Assembly (NCBI GenBank): GCA_023150935.1
Contig: JAKLJW010000004.1
Location: 62,001-126,000 of the forward strand
Length of the DNA stretch: 64,000 nt
Source: Candidatus Binatia bacterium
GTDB lineage: Bacteria; Desulfobacterota; Binatia; HRBIN30
Direction: 5' to 3'
Shown: in pieces, positions 41,698-53,740 of the stretch
Numbering within the stretch: position 1 is the stretch's first letter
Layout: each line of letters opens with the position of its first letter
Translations under genes and position numbers: made by a program
Notes under the pieces: generated by a model
What the model was told of the DNA's origin: nothing
The model's input: the letters and a program-made list of their open reading frames with translations, nothing else
Database searches by the model: none

Positions 41698-41902
41698 AGT
41701 TGACCGGGGTGGAGTCGATTGGGTTGGGGGTGCCGCGAAACTGAAACCGCTACTCAACGGGCTACCGGATGTCAATGGGCGTGGGGCCGTTGTTCGCGGG
41801 TCGTCCGATTGGTTCTGTCGTCCGATTGGTTCTTGAAACTTGCGGTACGCCTTGGTCACATGTGGGGGAACGCAGCTTCCTGCGGTCGTCGCACGCCTCG
41901 AT

Positions 41903-44900
41903 ATGCGCCCAGCGTTTCCAGCCAGAGCCTCCACGCCGGACCCGACTCTCGACGTATGGACACCGGCTTTCGTCGGCCGGGCGCACGAGCTGGGCGTTTT
42001 GGAGGCGGCGCGGCTGGCGGTGCAGGGGGGCGAGAGCCGTATCGTCCTGGTTGCCGGCGAGCCCGGCATCGGTAAGACGCGGCTGGTGACCGAGGCGCTG
42101 GCGCTGGTGCAGCAAGGCGGGGTTCGGGTGTTGCGCAGCCGGTGCTGGGAGGGGGGCGGTGCCCCGGCTTTCTGGCCCTGGGTGCAGCTCCTGCGGGGCA
42201 TCGTCGACGCTCCGGGTGCGGCCAGGGTGCTGGCGAACGTGGGGGTTGCGGCCGGCGATCTGGTACTGCTGCTGCCGGAGATCGAGGGGCATGTGAAGGC
42301 TCCGCCGACTCCGCCGGCGCTGGACGCGGAGCAGGCCCGTTTCCGGATGTTCGAAACGGTACTGTCGCTGCTCAAAGCCGCCGGCGCGCAGAGGCCAATG
42401 GCGCTCTGGGTGGACGATCTGCACGCGGCCGATGCGCCGTCGCTGGAACTCCTGCGGTTTGTGGCCGCGCACCTGTCGTTTCCGGGATTGCTGCTGGTCG
42501 CCTGCTACCGGGATACCGAGGTGGTGGTGGCGGAGAAGTTCCAGCGTGCCCTGACGGCGATGCTTCGAGCTCCGCAGTGCAAGCGCTTGCATCTGAGCGG
42601 ACTCGACGCGACGGACGTCGGTACCGTGGTCGGGGAAGCGCTTGGAATCGAGCCGCCGGCCGGCCTTGTCGAGGAGTTACGCGCGCGCACCGACGGCAAT
42701 GCTCTGCTGGTCACCGAGCTGACACGGGCGCTGGTCGACCGCCGACACGCCGATGCGGACGATTGGCGGGAGGTTGTCGCCCGCGTACCGCCCACGTTGC
42801 GTGACGTCATCGGTTCGCGTCTTGCCGAGTTGTCCGCGGAATCGCGGAAGGTGTTGGAGGCGGCCTCGGTTGCCGGTCGCGATTTCGAGGTTTCGTCGGT
42901 GGCGGCGGTGACGCGGCTGGAAACGGGCGCGGTGTTTGCGGCGCTCGATCGCGCCGCACGGCTGGGGATGGTGATGCCGGTGCAGGAGGCGGCCGATCGT
43001 TTCCGCTTCGCGCACGCGTTGATACTCGACTGCGTTTACGCGGGGGTGGCGCCCGCTTCCCGGATGACGTTCCATCGCGGTCTCGCGGTCACGCTGGCGG
43101 CGCGATACGGGGACCGGGACGGACAGCATCTGGCCGCGATCGCGCATCACTTCGGTGCCGCGGGCGGGTTGGAGGATCGGCGCGAGGCGTTCGCGTACCT
43201 GCTGCGGGCCGGCAAGCATGCGCGGCGTCTTCTGGCGTTCGAGGAGGCGGCGGAGCACTTCACGCGTGCGCTCGAGATCGCCCCGGACGACGATTCGGTG
43301 CGCTTCGAGGTTCTGTCCGCGCTTGCCGACGCCCAGCGCAACGCCAGTCAGCCGCAGACCGCGCGAGAAACGGCGCAACTGCTGCTGGAGATTGCCCGCA
43401 AGGTTGGCGACCCGGAGCTGTGTGCCCGGGCGGCGCTGGCCTATGCCGGTCCCCCAATTCTGGGTCAGCCCGATCCGGAGGTTATCTCGGTTCTCGAGTG
43501 GGCGCTCGCGCGTATGGCCGGAATCGAGAGCCCCTCGCACGTGCGTTTATTGGCCCGCATGGTGAGTGCCTTATCGCTGGCGCCATCGCAGGAAAGGCGG
43601 GCGGCGTTGGCGCGCACCGCGCTCGACATGGCAGCGCGCATCGACGACTTCGAGGGTCATACGGCGGCGGTCTTTGCGGCGCATGACGTACTATGGCTTC
43701 CGGACCGCTCTCTTAACGTCGTGCAGTGGATGGACCTGATAAGCGGATATGCGGCGGATAGAGGTCACGGAGAGGTCGAGGCTCTGGCACAGCTACTGCG
43801 GTTCACCCTCGTGTTGCGGGAAGGAGATATGGAAGCAGCGGCCAGCAATGCCGATCGTTGCGCCGCATTGGCGGACGAATTACGCCAGCCCCGTCATTCC
43901 TGGCAGGTCACCGCGATGCAAGCCACACTGGCAGTGGTGGAGGGCCGGTTCGCGGACGCGCAAAGGCGAGCAAGTGAGGCGCTCGCTATCGGGTGTGGCG
44001 GCAATATTGCGCTCGCGGAATTCTACTACGTAGCGCACATGATGGGCATTCTCCGCGATGTCGGAGGTCTTCGAGGCATTGTTCAGAGGGTGCGGACACT
44101 GGCGCGGCTGTACCCGGAGATGTGCGTCTGGGAAATGGCGCTCTTGTTCGTAGAAGCGGAGACGGATCGGCTGGACCGGGTCCAGCGGATGCTCCAGAGA
44201 CTGTCCGTCGACGAGATCTCGAACAACTTTTATTGGCTGCTTTCCTGCGGCCTGCTTGCCGAAGCTGTCGCCAGGGTCGGCCATGCGGGCTTGGCGCCCG
44301 ATCTTTACGACGCGATCCATCAATATGACGGGCAGGTCCTTTCGATTGGAGTGGCTGCTTATCTCGGACCCGTCGCGCGTTACCTCGCCCTGCTTGCAGC
44401 GGTCAGTGGCCGACACGAAGTTGCGCAGGAGCATTTTGCGTCGGCGCTCGATACGGCGCAGCGCATGAAGGCTGTGCCAATGGTCGCTCGCATCAAATAC
44501 GAATGGGCCGCGAGTCTGGTGCAAGCCGGCTATTCCTTGACCGCTCCGGAGGTGGTGGTTCTCGTCGACGGTGCGCGAGAGCTGGCGCGGCGCCTCAGGA
44601 TGCGTCCGTTGTTGCGGCGTTTGGAGCGGTTCGGGCTTACGCTTGATACTCCGACTCAGGCATCGATGCCCGCAACGCGACGGGTCAAGGGCTTTGGGGC
44701 AGCCTCTAACGGATCGGTTCCGCGAGAGAGCGTCGAGCGGTACTTCAGCCGCGACGGCGATGGTTGGGTGCTCGGTGGCGCCGATCGTAGCTTTCGGCTC
44801 CGCGATACGCGGGGCCTGCGCTATCTTGCCTGGTTGGTGCAATATCCGGGGCGGGAGGTGCACGTGCTCGAGCTGGTCGGGGCGGATTCCGGGACGCCGG

Positions 44901-45322
44901 CGGCTGGTGGCGTGGGAGCGCGCGGGGCGGCCGTGGCCGCGGGTCTGACGATCGGTGGCGGGGGTATGGGGCCGATCGTCGACCTCGATGCCCGCCGGGC
45001 GTATCGCGAGCGGCTACGCGATCTGCGGGACCGGTTGGCGGAGGCGGAGGCCAACTGCGACCTCGGGCGCATGAGCGCCGCTCGCGAGGAGATCCGACAC
45101 CTCTCGCGCCAACTCGCAACCGGCGGCGGGATCGAAGGCGAAGGGGCGGGCGCCGGTTCCGCAACCGAGCGCGCGCGTATCAGTGTGCGCAACAACATCG
45201 CCAACGCCCTGGCGCGCATTGCCCGGCACGATACCGACCTCTGGCGCCACCTTGCCAACAGCGTCAAGACGGGCACCTTTTGCAGCTACGAACCGGAACG
45301 TCCGGTTCGGTGGCGATTCTGA
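41903..45322 (+). CDS. Large AAA (STAND-like) ATPase with TPR region and a conserved C-terminal module
   Basis: 1139 aa from ATG 41903. FVGRAHELGVLEAARL followed by Walker A AGEPGIGKT (51-59) and Walker B LWVDD (168-172) defines an AfsR/LuxR-LAL-type AAA_16 ATPase. The middle ~500-900 is helical and TPR-like. The C-terminal ~180 residues contain LRDTRGLRYLAWLVQYPGREVHVLELVG, a Glu/Arg-rich coiled coil and SVRNNIANALARI...LANSVKTGTFCSY; this module recurs in large actinobacterial-type AAA regulators but has no named function. No LuxR HTH is visible. Likely a signal-responsive regulator; it points at the histidine kinase (convergent). Confidence 0.75.
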   Translation: MRPAFPARASTPDPTLDVWTPAFVGRAHELGVLEAARLAVQGGESRIVLVAGEPGIGKTRLVTEALALVQQGGVRVLRSRCWEGGGAPAFWPWVQLLRGIVDAPGAARVLANVGVAAGDLVLLLPEIEGHVKAPPTPPALDAEQARFRMFETVLSLLKAAGAQRPMALWVDDLHAADAPSLELLRFVAAHLSFPGLLLVACYRDTEVVVAEKFQRALTAMLRAPQCKRLHLSGLDATDVGTVVGEALGIEPPAGLVEELRARTDGNALLVTELTRALVDRRHADADDWREVVARVPPTLRDVIGSRLAELSAESRKVLEAASVAGRDFEVSSVAAVTRLETGAVFAALDRAARLGMVMPVQEAADRFRFAHALILDCVYAGVAPASRMTFHRGLAVTLAARYGDRDGQHLAAIAHHFGAAGGLEDRREAFAYLLRAGKHARRLLAFEEAAEHFTRALEIAPDDDSVRFEVLSALADAQRNASQPQTARETAQLLLEIARKVGDPELCARAALAYAGPPILGQPDPEVISVLEWALARMAGIESPSHVRLLARMVSALSLAPSQERRAALARTALDMAARIDDFEGHTAAVFAAHDVLWLPDRSLNVVQWMDLISGYAADRGHGEVEALAQLLRFTLVLREGDMEAAASNADRCAALADELRQPRHSWQVTAMQATLAVVEGRFADAQRRASEALAIGCGGNIALAEFYYVAHMMGILRDVGGLRGIVQRVRTLARLYPEMCVWEMALLFVEAETDRLDRVQRMLQRLSVDEISNNFYWLLSCGLLAEAVARVGHAGLAPDLYDAIHQYDGQVLSIGVAAYLGPVARYLALLAAVSGRHEVAQEHFASALDTAQRMKAVPMVARIKYEWAASLVQAGYSLTAPEVVVLVDGARELARRLRMRPLLRRLERFGLTLDTPTQASMPATRRVKGFGAASNGSVPRESVERYFSRDGDGWVLGGADRSFRLRDTRGLRYLAWLVQYPGREVHVLELVGADSGTPAAGGVGARGAAVAAGLTIGGGGMGPIVDLDARRAYRERLRDLRDRLAEAEANCDLGRMSAAREEIRHLSRQLATGGGIEGEGAGAGSATERARISVRNNIANALARIARHDTDLWRHLANSVKTGTFCSYEPERPVRWRF

Positions 45323-47584: not shown

Positions 47585-48184
47585 CTAACCGGGAAAGCCG
47601 GCTGAACTCGTTTCGAACAGGAACCGCACCAGGGTCGGGTGCCTTTCGGAATGGACGCGCTCGATCGCCAAGATGTCGAGGTGCATCGGGTATACTTCAC
47701 CCCAGACCGGATGTTTGAAGGCTTCCGCGAATGGGCGGAAGAACGCCGAGCGGTATAAACTCCGAAGGTGCGGCAAGGACAGGATCAGGAAGTCGGTGAT
47801 CGCCCTCTGACGGGCTCGCAAGATGGCGAGCTTCAGCATGCCTAGCGGAATGAACTGCCGGCTGCTGATGGTGCGCTGGTCTTCCCGGATTACGAAGCGG
47901 TCCAAGTAGGCTGGTGTCCGTGCTCCGAGCAGCAATTTGTCTATGTCGACAAACCCCTCGATCGGGAACGGCCGCTGTTCGGGACCGAGCAGGCGGAATG
48001 CCGCTACGATCGTGCCGTCCGGCCCGCGAGCCATCAGATGGTCGGCGGTCGTATCGAAGGAGTCCACACCCTCGTTGTTCAGGGCGGCGGTGTATACGGT
48101 GCGGCGGAGCGCCAGCACCTCCGAGGTCTCAGTCGCACCAGCAACGCTGAAACTCAAACCGTGCAACAGCTTGGCGGGGTCCAT
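47585..48184 (-). CDS. FeeM-like N-acyl amino acid synthase (GNAT/autoinducer-synthase fold)
   Basis: 199 aa. LALRRTVYTAALNNEG, then DTTADHLMARGPDGTIVAAFRLLG, LDRFVIREDQRTISSRQF and a C-terminal EVYPMHLDI follow the pattern of FeeM-type N-acyl amino acid synthases, relatives of AHL synthases. FeeM takes an acyl chain from an acyl carrier protein and puts it on an amino acid. The divergent ACP gene begins 219 nt away and would be the donor carrier. The assignment is by pattern only; a plain GNAT acyltransferase is the alternative. Confidence 0.68.
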   Translation of the reverse strand: MDPAKLLHGLSFSVAGATETSEVLALRRTVYTAALNNEGVDSFDTTADHLMARGPDGTIVAAFRLLGPEQRPFPIEGFVDIDKLLLGARTPAYLDRFVIREDQRTISSRQFIPLGMLKLAILRARQRAITDFLILSLPHLRSLYRSAFFRPFAEAFKHPVWGEVYPMHLDILAIERVHSERHPTLVRFLFETSSAGFPG

Positions 48185-48269
48185 GGGCGTATGCCTCGGT
48201 GTGGCGTCGCGCCGGCAGGGCGCGTGGAAGCCCGACGCGAGTGTGGCTTAGCAATCTGTGAAAAGCCGC

Positions 48270-48297
48270 TTGATTTGTCTCCCACTTTTCGTATGTT
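48270..48297 (+). promoter_or_regulatory. Weak candidate promoter for the ACP operon
   Basis: TTGATT (48270-48275) - N16 - TATGTT (48292-48297) in the 219-nt gap between the divergent FeeM-like and ACP genes. The region is less GC-rich than its surroundings, as expected of a divergent promoter. The boxes are only partial matches. Confidence 0.3.
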
Positions 48298-48403
48298 CCC
48301 CTGCGATTGTCTAGGTAGTCAAGTGCGATCTTAACCGGATATTCTGGAAAGCTCCCTCCTGTCCGAAGTGTCCAGCCAGCCACATATGAGACCAGAGGTG
48401 TGC

Positions 48404-48667
48404 ATGAGGGTGATAAGTAGAGCCGTGGTGCGCGACCGTCTGGCCCAACTGCTTGGGGAGATAGGGGGGATTCCTGCGGAATCCATTACCGACGCGGCGG
48501 GCGTCGATGACCAACTGCAGATGTCTTCGCTGGCGTTTCTGGAGCTTCAAGCGGCGCTGGAAGATGAGTACGAGATCCAAATCGATCCTATTCAGGTCGT
48601 GGAGTTGAACCAGTTCGGAAGGATCGTCGACTACCTGTACGACCGGCTGACCTCTCCTCAGTCATGA
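48404..48667 (+). CDS. Acyl carrier protein
   Basis: 87 aa from ATG 48404 (AGGTG just upstream; ATG 48386 is an alternative). It has the four-helix ACP pattern with QMSSLAFLELQAALEDEYEIQI in the helix II region. Ser42 is the expected phosphopantetheine site, but the usual Asp before it (DSL) is Ser (SSL), a change that may alter the choice of PPTase. Its stop overlaps the start of the acyl-CoA dehydrogenase gene by 4 nt. A FeeM-like gene faces it and a ketosynthase follows, so it is a dedicated carrier, not the housekeeping AcpP. Confidence 0.83.
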   Translation: MRVISRAVVRDRLAQLLGEIGGIPAESITDAAGVDDQLQMSSLAFLELQAALEDEYEIQIDPIQVVELNQFGRIVDYLYDRLTSPQS

Positions 48668-49806
48668 CCCTATTCTCGGAGGCCCATGAGGCCTTCCGGC
48701 AGCGACTGCGCGCGTATGTAGAAGGCCGGCTGACTCCCAATGCCGACGAGTGGGAGGCGCAGTGGACCCTGCCCCGCTCGGTGTTTGCGGAGATGGGCAG
48801 TCAGGGGTTCATCGGAATGTCGAGGGATCCCGCCTACGGAGGTCAGGGACTCGACTTCGGGTACGATGTTGTGCTGGCTGAGGAATTGCCCCGGTCCAAG
48901 ATGCCCGGGCTGTCCCTGAGTGTGGTGTTGCAGAACAGTCTTGTCGTGCCGTTGCTGGCGTGGCAGGCCAACGACGAGCAAAAACGCGAGTTCTTGGCCC
49001 CCGCGATTGCCGGCACGCGAATTGGGGCGGTGGCGTCGACCGAACCGGACGGGGGCTCGGATATCCTTCGCGGCACCCGTTGCGAGGCGGTCAGCGACGG
49101 CGATCACTGGGTGGTGACTGGCGAGAAGCTCTACATTACCAACGGGCCGATCGCCGACTTCGTCATCACGCTGGCGAAGACCCGCGAGACCGTCTCGCCG
49201 ACGAGTTTCACGCTTATCATCGTGCCCACCGACACGCCCGGGTTTCGCGTCAAAGAAAGCCTCCGGAAACTCGGCATGCACACCTCGCCGACCGGATGGC
49301 TGGCCTACGATGCCTGCCGCGTTCCAAAGCGCCTCACGCTCGGCAGACTCAACGTCGGGTTCTTCTACCATACGCAGAACCTGCTGGAAGAGCGGCTGAT
49401 GGCGGGCGTCTGCTCGGTCTCGCTCGGCCAACTGATTCTCGATGACACGGTCCGCCACTTACAGCGGCGCATCGTCTACGAGGCGCCACTGTCGAACCTG
49501 CAGACCGTACGCCATCGCATCGTCGAACATGCCACCGAACTCGAGATGGCGCGGCACTTCGTATACTCGGTGTGCGAGCGTTACCGCGATGGCAAGGTCG
49601 ATGCGAAAGAGATCTGTATGATAAAGTTCCGCGTGGTCGACATGCTGCACGACCTCGTGACGGACTGCATGCAGATGCAGGGCGGCGCGGGCTTCCTATC
49701 CGATAACTGGATCACGCGAGTTTACAGGGACATGCGGGTCCTCAGCCTCGGCGGTGGCGTATCGGAGCTCATGAAAGACATTATAGCGGGTTATTTGCGA
49801 TTGTGA
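48664..49806 (+). CDS. Acyl-CoA (or acyl-ACP) dehydrogenase
   Basis: 380 aa FAD enzyme that introduces an alpha,beta double bond in an acyl thioester. GFIGMSRDPAYGGQGLDFGY, STEPDGGSDI, WVVTGEKLYITNGPIADF and MQMQGGAGFLSDNWITRVYRDMRV are family motifs. At the C-terminal position of the usual catalytic Glu (IYEGTSE) it has LGGGVSE, with Gly364 aligned to Glu; some ACADs keep the base elsewhere in the fold. Coupled to the ACP gene by a 4-nt overlap, it may act on the ACP-bound chain. Confidence 0.87.
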   Translation: MTLFSEAHEAFRQRLRAYVEGRLTPNADEWEAQWTLPRSVFAEMGSQGFIGMSRDPAYGGQGLDFGYDVVLAEELPRSKMPGLSLSVVLQNSLVVPLLAWQANDEQKREFLAPAIAGTRIGAVASTEPDGGSDILRGTRCEAVSDGDHWVVTGEKLYITNGPIADFVITLAKTRETVSPTSFTLIIVPTDTPGFRVKESLRKLGMHTSPTGWLAYDACRVPKRLTLGRLNVGFFYHTQNLLEERLMAGVCSVSLGQLILDDTVRHLQRRIVYEAPLSNLQTVRHRIVEHATELEMARHFVYSVCERYRDGKVDAKEICMIKFRVVDMLHDLVTDCMQMQGGAGFLSDNWITRVYRDMRVLSLGGGVSELMKDIIAGYLRL

Positions 49807-49844
49807 CTTGTGATAAGCGCCGTGCTGTGTAATAAGCTTGGACC

Positions 49845-51101
49845 GTGGACCGGGCCGTCATTACCGGCATCGGGCTTGTGGGTCCGACCGGGTTCGACGT
49901 GCGAGGGTTTTGGGACTCTATCCTCAGGGGGCCCGCGTGCGTTCGCCGCATCACCCGCTTCGATCCCACCGGCTATGCATCCCAAATTGCAGCAGAAGTC
50001 CCGGACCGCAGCTACGAAGAGCTGATTGACCCGCGCAAGGTTCGCACCACCACCCACGTGACCCGCATGGCACTGGCGGCGGCCGAGTTTGCCCTGCGGG
50101 ACGCGCGTTTGTCGACGCACTGGGAGGACCCGACCCGGGTCGGCGTCATCGTCGGCACGTCGCTCGGGGGTTGGTTCGAGGCCGAACAGCAGCATTCTAT
50201 CCTGCTCGAACGCGGTGCCCGCCGCGTTAACCCGTTCATCGCCAACGGTACGCCCAATCATGCGGCCGGCGCCGAAGTTGCCGGCGCGCTCGGGGCGCAA
50301 GGGCCGCAAGCCACGTTTTCGAGCGGCTGCGTCTCCAGCCTGCAGGCCATCGGTCACGCCGCCATGCTCGTGCGCACCGGCGAAGTGGACGTGTGCGTGG
50401 CGGGCGGGTTCGAGAACCCCATTGCGCCGCTGATTATGGCAGGGATGGGCAGAACCCAGGAGCTGTCGGCGCGCAATGACGATCCGCAGCAGGCGTCTCG
50501 CCCGTTCGATGCCGAGCACGCCGGTATCGTGCTCAGCGAGGGCAGTTGCTTCGTCCTGATCGAGAGCCCGGAACGGGCGGCCGCGCGCGGTATCGATCCT
50601 TATGCGGACGTTCTGGGTGCGGCGTCTTCCTGCGACGGCGCCGGCCTGTTTGGCGTTGACCAGTCGGGAAAGGCGGGAGCCAGCGCGATTCGCCGCCTGC
50701 TCGAACGTGCCGGCCTGCAACTCGACGAGGTCGATTATATTTGCTCCCACGCCAACTCGTCGCCGCTTTTCGATCGCAAAGAGACTACCGTGGTAAAGGC
50801 CGCGTTCGGAGACCACGCCGGCCGCCTCGCGATCTCTTCTATAAAGGGGGTCATCGGTCATCCGTTCGGCGCTTCCGGCGCCTTTCAGACGGCGGCCTCG
50901 GCGCTGGCTATTCGTCATCAGACAATACCGCCCACTCATAACCTCAGGACACCCGACGCGGCGTGCGATCTCGACTATGTCCCCGGCGAGCCCCGCCGCT
51001 GCGCGGTCCGGAAAGCCCTGGTCACCAGTTACGGATACGGCGGGCTGAACAGCTATCTGTTGCTCGGGGCACTTAACGGCGCCGCCCCGGCCGCAGCCTG
51101 A
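49845..51101 (+). CDS. Beta-ketoacyl-ACP synthase (KAS II-like)
   Basis: 418 aa condensing enzyme from GTG 49845. Catalytic triad: Cys162 in SSGCVSSLQA, His302 in ICSHANSSPLFD and His339 in IKGVIGHPFGASGA with Lys334; all intact. Terminal motif GYGGLNSYLLL replaces GFGGxN. It extends an ACP-bound acyl chain with malonyl-ACP. 38 nt after the dehydrogenase and on the same strand as the ACP, it completes a small elongation/desaturation module. It is more like specialised KAS enzymes than housekeeping FabF. Confidence 0.9.
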   Translation: MDRAVITGIGLVGPTGFDVRGFWDSILRGPACVRRITRFDPTGYASQIAAEVPDRSYEELIDPRKVRTTTHVTRMALAAAEFALRDARLSTHWEDPTRVGVIVGTSLGGWFEAEQQHSILLERGARRVNPFIANGTPNHAAGAEVAGALGAQGPQATFSSGCVSSLQAIGHAAMLVRTGEVDVCVAGGFENPIAPLIMAGMGRTQELSARNDDPQQASRPFDAEHAGIVLSEGSCFVLIESPERAAARGIDPYADVLGAASSCDGAGLFGVDQSGKAGASAIRRLLERAGLQLDEVDYICSHANSSPLFDRKETTVVKAAFGDHAGRLAISSIKGVIGHPFGASGAFQTAASALAIRHQTIPPTHNLRTPDAACDLDYVPGEPRRCAVRKALVTSYGYGGLNSYLLLGALNGAAPAAA

Positions 51102-51331: not shown

Positions 51332-53740
51332 TTACGCTTCTACGATGTCGACCTGAACGTGTGGCGCTTCCGTGAACTCGCGGCGGAGGCCGCCAACCGC
51401 GAGATGCTCCGGCTCCTCGGCCGGCGGTTCCTGCGGATTGGCAGTCAGCAAGAACCGGGGCCGGCCGACGACCGTTAGGGCCGGGATCACCGCCAGGGTC
51501 GCCAGCGCACTGGTGCCGATGATCAGGGCGGTCAGCACGCCGAGTCGAATCCAGAGGCTGAAGCCGGAAAACGGCAGTACCAGGTACCCCAGCACCACGG
51601 CGGACGAGACGAAGAAAATGGCCTTCCCCGAGGTCTGCAAACTGGTCGCGATAGCCGCGGGTAGATCGACCGTCCCGCCACGCAACTCCTCGCGAATGCG
51701 GAACAGCAGGTAGATGACGAAGTCGGCGCCGATGCTGACCCCCATGGCCGTGAACGCCGCCGTGGTCATGTCGAGCCACGTGCCCGACCACCCCATTGCT
51801 CCCAGCGTGACGATCGTCGCGATACAGAGCGGCGTGAGGACGAGCAGGCCGCCGATCGGCGAACGCAGGGCCACCGTGGAGAGCACGAAGATGATCAGCC
51901 CGACCTGCACCATGTTGGCCAGCTTCTCCCGAATCACGACCTCGTTCATGGCGGTCTGCACGCCGAGCGTCCCCCCCGCGACCCCCACCTCGACCGGAAG
52001 ACCCTCGAAGCGGCGGTCCACGTAACCCTGTACGCGCTCGATGAACGCCGCCGAGAAGGCAGCACTGTCGGTCTTACTCAGCGCCCGGACCACGGCGTTG
52101 CGCTGTGCCGGGTCGACGACGGCGCTCAAGCCGTCAGGCCCCGCAGCCATATCGTAGAGCAGAAGATACTGACTGATGAGCCGCGCGTTGTCCGGGATGG
52201 CGTAAGCCGCGGCATCGCCCCGGTTCATGGCCTTGTGCATGCGCTTTACGTGTCCGGCGATCGACATTACCCCGCCGACTTCCGGCTCATCTTCCAGAAA
52301 CGCCTCGAGATCGCTGAGGGCATGAAGGACCGCCGGCTCGGTCAACACGCCGTCTCGCGCGCCTTCGATCAGCAAACGCAACGACGCTGTCCCCTGCAGT
52401 TTGTCGTTCAGGAGGGCATCGTCCTTGCGCACCTGCGTTGCGGGCGAGAACCACAGGCGAAAGCTGTTGTCCACATGAAGCCTCAGGGCGCCGAGGCCGG
52501 CAACGATCGTCACCAGGGCCGCAACCGTGAGCACGGCTCGCGGCCGTGCCGTCACGACGCCGGCAATCGCGTCGAGGGCACGACCCAGCCAGTGGCCCTC
52601 CCGTTCGCGCTGCATCTCGCGCAGCTTCGGCGCCGGGAGGAGGCAGCGGCAGGCGGGCGTGAACGTCATCTCGATAAGCAGCGCGCTGCCGATTCCCGAA
52701 GCGAGCAGCAGTCCAAAGACGCGCACGCTGGTGACATCGAAGGTGAGCAGAGAACTGAAACCGGCGACCGCAACCAGGCCCGCGGTCAACATGACCGGAC
52801 CCACCGCAACGATCGACGCCACGACCGCCTCGCGAACGTCGCCAAGGCGCGCGAACTCCTCGTAAAAGCGCTTGAGGATCTGTACCGCGTGACCGGCCGC
52901 CACGGCGAGGATCACCACCGGCGTGATGGCGCTCCACGTGTCCATCGGCTCGCCCGAGAGGCCCATGATGCCGAGCGCCCAGAACACGCTGAGCAGCGCG
53001 GTGACCAGCGGTAAGAGCATCGCCTGCACGGTGCGGAAGGCCTCGTAATGGATCAGGCCGATCACCAATACCGCTACCGGAAACAGGACGGCGATCATGC
53101 GGGTGTACTGGGTCAGCCAGTAGCGGAGGATCGGTGCCCCCGCGAGTGCGACGATAACCGTGTCGTCCCGCTCCGGAGCGACGATCGCCTCGATGCGGTC
53201 CGCAATGGCGATGTCGGTCAGGCGGTCGTCGAATTCGGCCAGAATGACGGTGGCAGTGCCGTCCTCCGACACCAGATTGCCGTGGAACAGCCTGTCGCTG
53301 TCGACGTTCCGGCGCAGGTCGGCCACGCTCGCGGAGTCGATCGCACCCTCGGTAAGCAGGGGGCGCACTTCCATCGTATCGTCCGCGCCCGGGAGCACGG
53401 CCTTTACGTACGGACCGGCAAGGCTGAACAGGCTGGTTTCGATAATCCCGGGGGTCTTCTGCAAGCGTTGGGTGATGCGCCGGACCTTACCGAGCATGGC
53501 CGGTGTGTAGATATCGCCCGAGGTAGCGATGAGACCGATAACCACCACCGCCTCGCCGCCGAACAGATCCGCGATGCGATTCTGGATTTCCACGAACCGA
53601 TGGTGCTGAGGCAGCGCCGCGCGGCGGCGGATCTCGAGGTGGACATGGCGAATCTGGGTGGCCAGGAAGGCCGTGACCAACAACACCGCGGTCAGCACAG
53701 CGACGGGATGCCTGACAACAAAAGCGATGTAGCGTCTCAT
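51332..53740 (-). CDS. MMPL-family RND exporter
   Basis: 802 aa with two repeats of one TM + large periplasmic loop + five TMs. DTWSAITPVVILAVAAGHAVQILKRFYEE and AAFTAMGVSIGADFVIYLLFRIREE are the paired TM4/TM10 segments of the MMPL/HpnN family, in which the acidic or polar residue drives proton use. Such transporters move lipids, hopanoids, siderophores or lipid signals. It stands convergent to the KAS gene, beside the FeeM-ACP-KAS cluster, and could export its product, though it has its own promoter and may be independent. Confidence 0.85.
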   Translation of the reverse strand: MRRYIAFVVRHPVAVLTAVLLVTAFLATQIRHVHLEIRRRAALPQHHRFVEIQNRIADLFGGEAVVVIGLIATSGDIYTPAMLGKVRRITQRLQKTPGIIETSLFSLAGPYVKAVLPGADDTMEVRPLLTEGAIDSASVADLRRNVDSDRLFHGNLVSEDGTATVILAEFDDRLTDIAIADRIEAIVAPERDDTVIVALAGAPILRYWLTQYTRMIAVLFPVAVLVIGLIHYEAFRTVQAMLLPLVTALLSVFWALGIMGLSGEPMDTWSAITPVVILAVAAGHAVQILKRFYEEFARLGDVREAVVASIVAVGPVMLTAGLVAVAGFSSLLTFDVTSVRVFGLLLASGIGSALLIEMTFTPACRCLLPAPKLREMQREREGHWLGRALDAIAGVVTARPRAVLTVAALVTIVAGLGALRLHVDNSFRLWFSPATQVRKDDALLNDKLQGTASLRLLIEGARDGVLTEPAVLHALSDLEAFLEDEPEVGGVMSIAGHVKRMHKAMNRGDAAAYAIPDNARLISQYLLLYDMAAGPDGLSAVVDPAQRNAVVRALSKTDSAAFSAAFIERVQGYVDRRFEGLPVEVGVAGGTLGVQTAMNEVVIREKLANMVQVGLIIFVLSTVALRSPIGGLLVLTPLCIATIVTLGAMGWSGTWLDMTTAAFTAMGVSIGADFVIYLLFRIREELRGGTVDLPAAIATSLQTSGKAIFFVSSAVVLGYLVLPFSGFSLWIRLGVLTALIIGTSALATLAVIPALTVVGRPRFLLTANPQEPPAEEPEHLAVGGLRREFTEAPHVQVDIVEA

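Follow-up and report, generated by a model that had tools for sequence, protein, structure and literature searches.

A FeeM/LuxI-like acyltransferase paired with a seven-transmembrane sensor kinase in Binatia: a candidate lipid signal synthase and its receptor

A small gene cluster of Candidatus Binatia bacterium (HRBIN30; assembly GCA_023150935.1, contig JAKLJW010000004.1, positions 62,001 to 126,000 of the forward strand) raises the question of whether a fatty-acyl signal and the kinase that perceives it are encoded side by side. The window is this whole stretch of 64,000 nucleotides, the coordinates given are positions within it, and G-numbers and L-numbers designate genomes and loci. An earlier note had read the cluster as an acyltransferase (AT) divergent from closely coupled genes for an acyl carrier protein (ACP), an acyl-CoA/acyl-ACP dehydrogenase-like protein (ACAD), and a FabF-type ketosynthase (KAS). 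The four open reading frames (ORFs) were confirmed at the positions it claimed, with AT on the minus strand and the other three on the plus strand, ACP and ACAD overlapping by 4 bases (ATGA) and ACAD and KAS separated by 38 bases. Two members of the set lie outside the interval it treated (47585-51101): a sensor kinase gene (HK), which begins 5 bases past the AT stop codon, and a gene for an MMPL transporter (Table 1). Our tentative answer, which we hold to be possible but a little short of probable, is that the locus pairs an acyl-signal synthase with a membrane kinase acting as its receptor, by analogy with LuxM/LuxN, CqsA/CqsS, and PhcB/PhcS.

The invariant core of the locus is the AT-HK pair, to which ACP, ACAD, and KAS are added in most of the order. 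Among 15 genomes of the order, an intact AT adjoins HK in eight (G000, G003, G005, G006, G008, G009, G010, and G012); G001 has an AT beside HK that is incomplete at the contig end, and G007 has the pair with a frameshifted AT. In five genomes of family f11, AT and an HK of the same kinase family are divergently oriented, and several of these genomes have an MMPL gene and an NtrC-type regulator close by. A putative synthase gene is conserved next to a membrane sensor kinase, as in known synthase/receptor-kinase pairs. The pairwise identities of AT and HK are correlated (r = 0.87, 13 genomes). The grouping of ACP, ACAD, and KAS with AT, on which the earlier proposal depended, also recurs: within the class, KAS orthologues are confined to 11 genomes of this order, 10 of which carry this HK, and ACP accompanies KAS in nine and ACAD in seven of the 11. 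In G011, KAS lies at a contig edge, and in G012 it is 44 kb away from AT-HK, beside an MMPL gene and behind another kinase. The MMPL gene adjoins KAS in G001, G007, and G008 as well as in G012, and adjoins AT in a second family. The earlier description of a minimal FeeM cluster with its own sensor kinase underplayed the strongest feature of the locus, the AT-HK pair; in other phyla, moreover, kinases of the same family have different fatty-acyl enzymes as neighbors.

That wider association was assessed with the HK membrane domain since the AT alignment was too poorly conserved for a genome scan, and the 79 loci considered come from one scan of GTDB species genomes by the seven-transmembrane (7TM) domain alone. 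A gene for a fatty-acyl enzyme or ACP lay just upstream on the same strand at 19 of the 68 loci having enough upstream sequence, the effective number being lower than 19 because one of the sampled loci belongs to the window's own order and several share a phylum (Omnitrophota). Acyl-enzyme genes numbered 20 within 3 kb of the kinase (415 kb searched), compared with 1 at 6 to 9 kb (254 kb), a proximity excess with P = 0.0006 given exposure and P = 0.012 once related cases were pruned. NtrC-type regulators adjoin the kinase at several loci. It is conceivable, if rather doubtful, that 7TM-GAF kinases (PF16927, PrsK-like) of several little-studied phyla act as receptors for signals of fatty-acyl origin, served by interchangeable synthases (FeeM/LuxI-like, alpha-oxoamine synthase, LuxD-methyltransferase, and KAS with ICMT), of which the FeeM-like ones would be diversifying fast for specificity. 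The alpha-oxoamine synthases score under all curated cut-offs shown and mostly highest for serine palmitoyltransferase, and for these reasons they were not assigned to CqsA.

The modeled structure places AT in the FeeM/LuxI superfamily. The best match of the AlphaFold model (mean pLDDT 85) is FeeM itself (2G0B; Z 19.0, 2.7 Å, 176 residues aligned, 11% identity) rather than a member of an unrelated GNAT clade; the next chain has Z 16.7, and TofI, RpaI, LasI, and BjaI score about 15. When a profile of nine ATs was compared with PDB sequences, TofI matched best (34.7 bits, E 1.2e-7). D41, D44, and R64 are invariant across all nine aligned ATs, at a spacing that agrees with the LuxI DxxD...R pattern. 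The hidden Markov model check suggested earlier gave a divided result: the 199-amino-acid (aa) protein reached 19.8 bits for Pfam Acetyltransf_5 (cut-off 22.4) and matched neither FeeM (cut-off 27 bits) nor Autoind_synth (PF00765, the domain of LuxI acyl-homoserine lactone [AHL] synthases), whereas its homologues at L014, L012, and L018 exceeded the FeeM cut-off (35.0, 30.7, and 35.8 bits, respectively).

The earlier label of a FeeM-like N-acyl amino acid synthase (NAS) holds at the level of the superfamily, by the lead of FeeM over the next chain in Z, but as an enzymatic label it is unproven because the NAS catalytic glutamate, FeeM Glu95, corresponds to Tyr93 in the family alignment. The corresponding glutamate has been shown to be essential in Nas354 (PMC4897644). 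Seven of the order's eight ATs have another residue there (four have Gln and two Leu, besides Tyr93); L014 alone in the order retains the glutamate, which is also present throughout the second clade of ATs. Neither the acceptor nor even the activity of AT can be read from the sequence. One could suppose that AT is catalytically dead and serves as the kinase's ligand-binding partner, which would agree with the substitutions at this position and with the very fast divergence of AT. We consider this improbable in view of the invariant D41, D44, and R64, the well-ordered FeeM-like fold of the model, and the L014 orthologue, which retains the glutamate in the same setting; GNAT enzymes, moreover, can function without it.

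The divergence of AT stands out against that of its neighbors. In three genomes of one genus, syntenic AT pairs are 36 to 38% identical, compared with 81 to 89% for KAS, 77 to 86% for ACAD, and 67 to 70% for HK; syntenic neighbors are 41 to 93% identical, mostly over 60%, the two 41% pairs being one further-off ORF. G008 and G010 present the same contrast (AT 33%, KAS 78%). Changing specificity and relaxed constraint would both fit. A corresponding hypervariability of the HK sensor domain was considered and rejected, since the sensor/kinase identity ratio (0.84 to 0.89) falls within the range of the same genomes' other kinases (0.51 to 1.14).

The proteins that could supply AT with an acyl chain appear intact. 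ACP matches PF00550 at 35.4 bits and retains the pantetheine Ser, with the motif MSSL in place of DSL, and its Pfam match, like those of ACAD and KAS, is well over cut-off. KAS matches PF00109 at 142 bits and has all of C162-H302-K334-H339, the catalytic positions of its family; ACAD retains Glu243, which occupies the catalytic position of the isovaleryl-CoA-dehydrogenase type. KAS forms a clade of its own, 51 to 64% identical to its orthologues versus 39% for the closest other KAS in the same genome, and the other KAS of the order's genomes are about 29 to 39% identical to it. Given the intact catalytic residues, chain elongation by KAS or 2-enoyl formation by ACAD is plausible, and a dedicated acyl-ACP supply is consistent with FeeM-type chemistry.

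The predicted phospho-acceptor of HK is H489. All ten kinases scanned match PF16927 (HisKA_7TM, cut-off 28.6 bits), nine of them over the cut-off and the window HK under it (23.5 bits); the orthologue at L013 scores 34.8 bits and related kinases elsewhere score 36 to 73 bits. Structural matches of the 7TM part were only weak G-protein-coupled-receptor-like seven-helix ones, none with E <= 0.001, and were not used. By its match to TIGR02916 (150.2 bits, below the equivalog cut-off of 300), HK is a distant relative of PrsK, with which it shares an N-terminal multi-helix domain and a GAF domain. The PrsK stimulus has been described as obscure (PMC1569441). Published work has connected N-acyl amino acid synthases to PEP-CTERM systems (Craig 2011, cited in PMC4897644). 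In a further explanation, the locus would be a stand-alone cousin of the PEP-CTERM regulatory set in which an exosortase-associated acyltransferase and a PrsK-like kinase control surface proteins or exopolysaccharide. The exosortase-associated acyltransferase is distantly related to AT, one AT orthologue matching exosort_acyl at 41 bits (cut-off 112), and each of the nine order genomes examined for exosortases has them; this co-occurrence is weak evidence because the order genomes examined were ones with AT-HK. We find this explanation unlikely: both scores are far under the curated cut-offs, the locus contains no exosortase, those of this genome are on other contigs, and the three family f11 genomes tested all have AT-HK without an exosortase.

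A lipid signal with its own receptor is the simplest reading because the adjacency is conserved, the acyl supply is dedicated, a transporter is present, and the synthase is hypervariable. From the gene content, order, and conservation, the active sites (the AT glutamate excepted), the FeeM-like fold, the AT hypervariability, and the linkage of kinases with acyl enzymes, all of which are observed, we infer the chemistry, export, and ligand sensing. The dedicated ACP would carry an acyl chain that KAS and housekeeping reductases extend and that ACAD may desaturate at the 2,3 position. AT would then move the chain from ACP onto a small acceptor, probably an amine, and the product would diffuse out or be exported by the MMPL transporter, to be bound by the 7TM-GAF kinase, which would phosphorylate a regulator, probably of NtrC type, encoded elsewhere in this genome.

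Several points weigh against this proposal. No product or ligand is known, nor any density response; the glutamate that NAS enzymes use in catalysis is missing from AT, whose hypervariability could come from relaxed constraint; and the variability of the HK sensor part is nothing exceptional among the kinases of these genomes. No response regulator adjoins HK in the window, and a search of this genome for an orthologue of the f11 NtrC protein gave just generic NtrC-type matches. Furthermore, the oxoamine synthases beside related kinases score best for a membrane-lipid enzyme, and at some loci (L073, L074, and L076) the kinase is paired with KAS but with no transferase; the kinase may therefore have a general role in sensing or controlling lipid synthesis. 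On such an account, for which we see a real though lesser chance, the locus would be a two-component system controlling a specialized or membrane lipid: AT, ACP, KAS, and ACAD would make an N-acyl or related lipid (a biosurfactant, antibiotic, or lyso-aminolipid) exported by MMPL, and the 7TM-GAF kinase would turn on the genes in response to another cue, such as the membrane state to which DesK responds. Acetyltransf_5 includes aminolipid acyltransferases too, the MMPL gene keeps its place next to KAS or AT, and serine palmitoyltransferase models are the nearest match for the oxoamine synthases near related kinases. Known FeeM-type products, moreover, are surfactants or antibiotics (PMC4897644). 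However, the locus has no second acyltransferase of the OlsA/PlsC type, AT varies far more than any other gene nearby, which is unusual for a structural lipid enzyme, and the kinase stays while the adjoining enzyme types change. The present data do not firmly separate lipid control from a signal and its receptor.

Comparison with known systems shows a mixture of features. AT resembles FeeM in its modeled fold, in homologues over the Pfam cut-off, in the dedicated ACP nearby, and, in one relative, in an AMP-binding ligase; it differs in Tyr93, in its low identity, in falling under both Pfam cut-offs, and in always being paired with a sensor kinase. It shares a superfamily with the LuxI-type synthases TofI, BjaI, and RpaI, TofI being the best solved-structure match of the AT profile, but it lacks the glutamate of the WExSR motif, PF00765 is unmatched, and no LuxR was seen at the locus. 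LuxM/LuxN and CqsA/CqsS are known pairs of synthase and receptor kinase (PMC13220807), as is PhcB/PhcS (PMC8578825). In these, too, a small-molecule synthase gene lies beside a multi-helix membrane histidine kinase; related kinases adjoin oxoamine synthases, of the CqsA superfamily, and, in a logic like that of PhcB/PhcS, LuxD-methyltransferase fusions. In contrast to those systems, the synthase and kinase families here are different, and a dedicated ACP-ACAD-KAS set is present.

A literature search, with subscription journals mostly outside it, turned up neither the AT-kinase pair nor any linkage between these kinases and fatty-acyl enzymes. The literature surveyed gives no ligand for HisKA_7TM/PrsK-type kinases, for which the linkage suggests the fatty-acyl product of the adjoining enzyme, and the loci named here are ready-made synthase-kinase pairs. 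If the signal reading is true, several uncultivated lineages join those in which cells signal by lipid autoinducers, and the loci offer new acyltransferases whose active sites are unusual.

Table 1. Features of the locus in the window and gene arrangements beside related kinases
Feature	Position or locus	Strand	Basis or source
AT, FeeM/LuxI-superfamily acyltransferase, 199 aa	47585..48184	-	fold, homologues' Pfam matches
HK, 7TM (PF16927-like)-GAF-HisKA-HATPase sensor kinase, 710 aa	45447..47579	-	domain matches
ACP, dedicated acyl carrier protein	48407..48667 (alternative, less likely start: 48368)	+	PF00550
ACAD, acyl-CoA/acyl-ACP dehydrogenase-like	48664..49806	+	PF00441/02771/02770
KAS, FabF-type ketosynthase	49845..51101	+	PF00109
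MMPL/HAE3-type RND transporter, convergent with KAS	51332..53740	-	
AT/ACP divergent intergenic region	48185..48406	.	
KAS beside kinase	L073, L074, L076, L131		
KAS-ACP-alpha-oxoamine synthase-7TM kinase in a row	L084:1817-6720		Omnitrophota contig
Alpha-oxoamine synthase just before kinase	L120, L123, L132, L138		
KAS-ACP-ICMT-KAS beside kinase	L105		
KAS-ICMT beside kinase	L088, L090		
KAS-GNAT beside kinase	L106		
FeeM-like synthase, ThiF-like protein, then 7TM kinase	L107:7053-10806		
FeeM-like synthase and ACPs beside kinase	L087		
LuxD-like acyltransferase directly upstream of 7TM kinase	L101:5153-8986		
LuxD-S-adenosylmethionine methyltransferase fusion directly upstream of kinase	L187:7616-9340, L192:910-2658		window's own class
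KAS-HK-NtrC operons	L186, L188, L190		family f5, window's own class

Some of the related loci have features of their own. The pairing of FeeM-like and ThiF-like proteins at L107 is as in N-acyl tyrosine and tyrazolone clusters, and the oxoamine synthases of L120, L123, and L132 have an additional N-terminal stretch of about 150 aa. At L186, L188, and L190, the KAS and kinase genes are followed by a sigma-54 AAA plus HisKA protein and an NtrC-type regulator, in the same order as in Syntrophaceae L076. KAS homologues near kinases at L105:7481-8725, L072:1993-3237, and L131:216-1463 have one or both catalytic His replaced and are possibly chain-length-factor-like partners. In G009 (L012:3341-8400), the AT-HK operon extends into a second ACP and the AMP-binding ligase, a fuller acyl-loading set.

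The homologous contigs that carry names are metagenome-assembled "Deltaproteobacteria." In G007 (L182), the frame breaks in AT, HK, and ACP are probably sequencing indels, and an apparent AT-HK gene fusion there (an 880-aa ORF) was rejected as a frameshift artifact, the N-terminal part of HK being out of frame. In the AT/ACP divergent region, matches to sigma-54 and sigma-70 promoter consensus sequences did not exceed chance. Convergent with the HK gene, the window contains a 1160-aa AAA_16/TPR ORF with a TTG start (41840-45322, plus strand).

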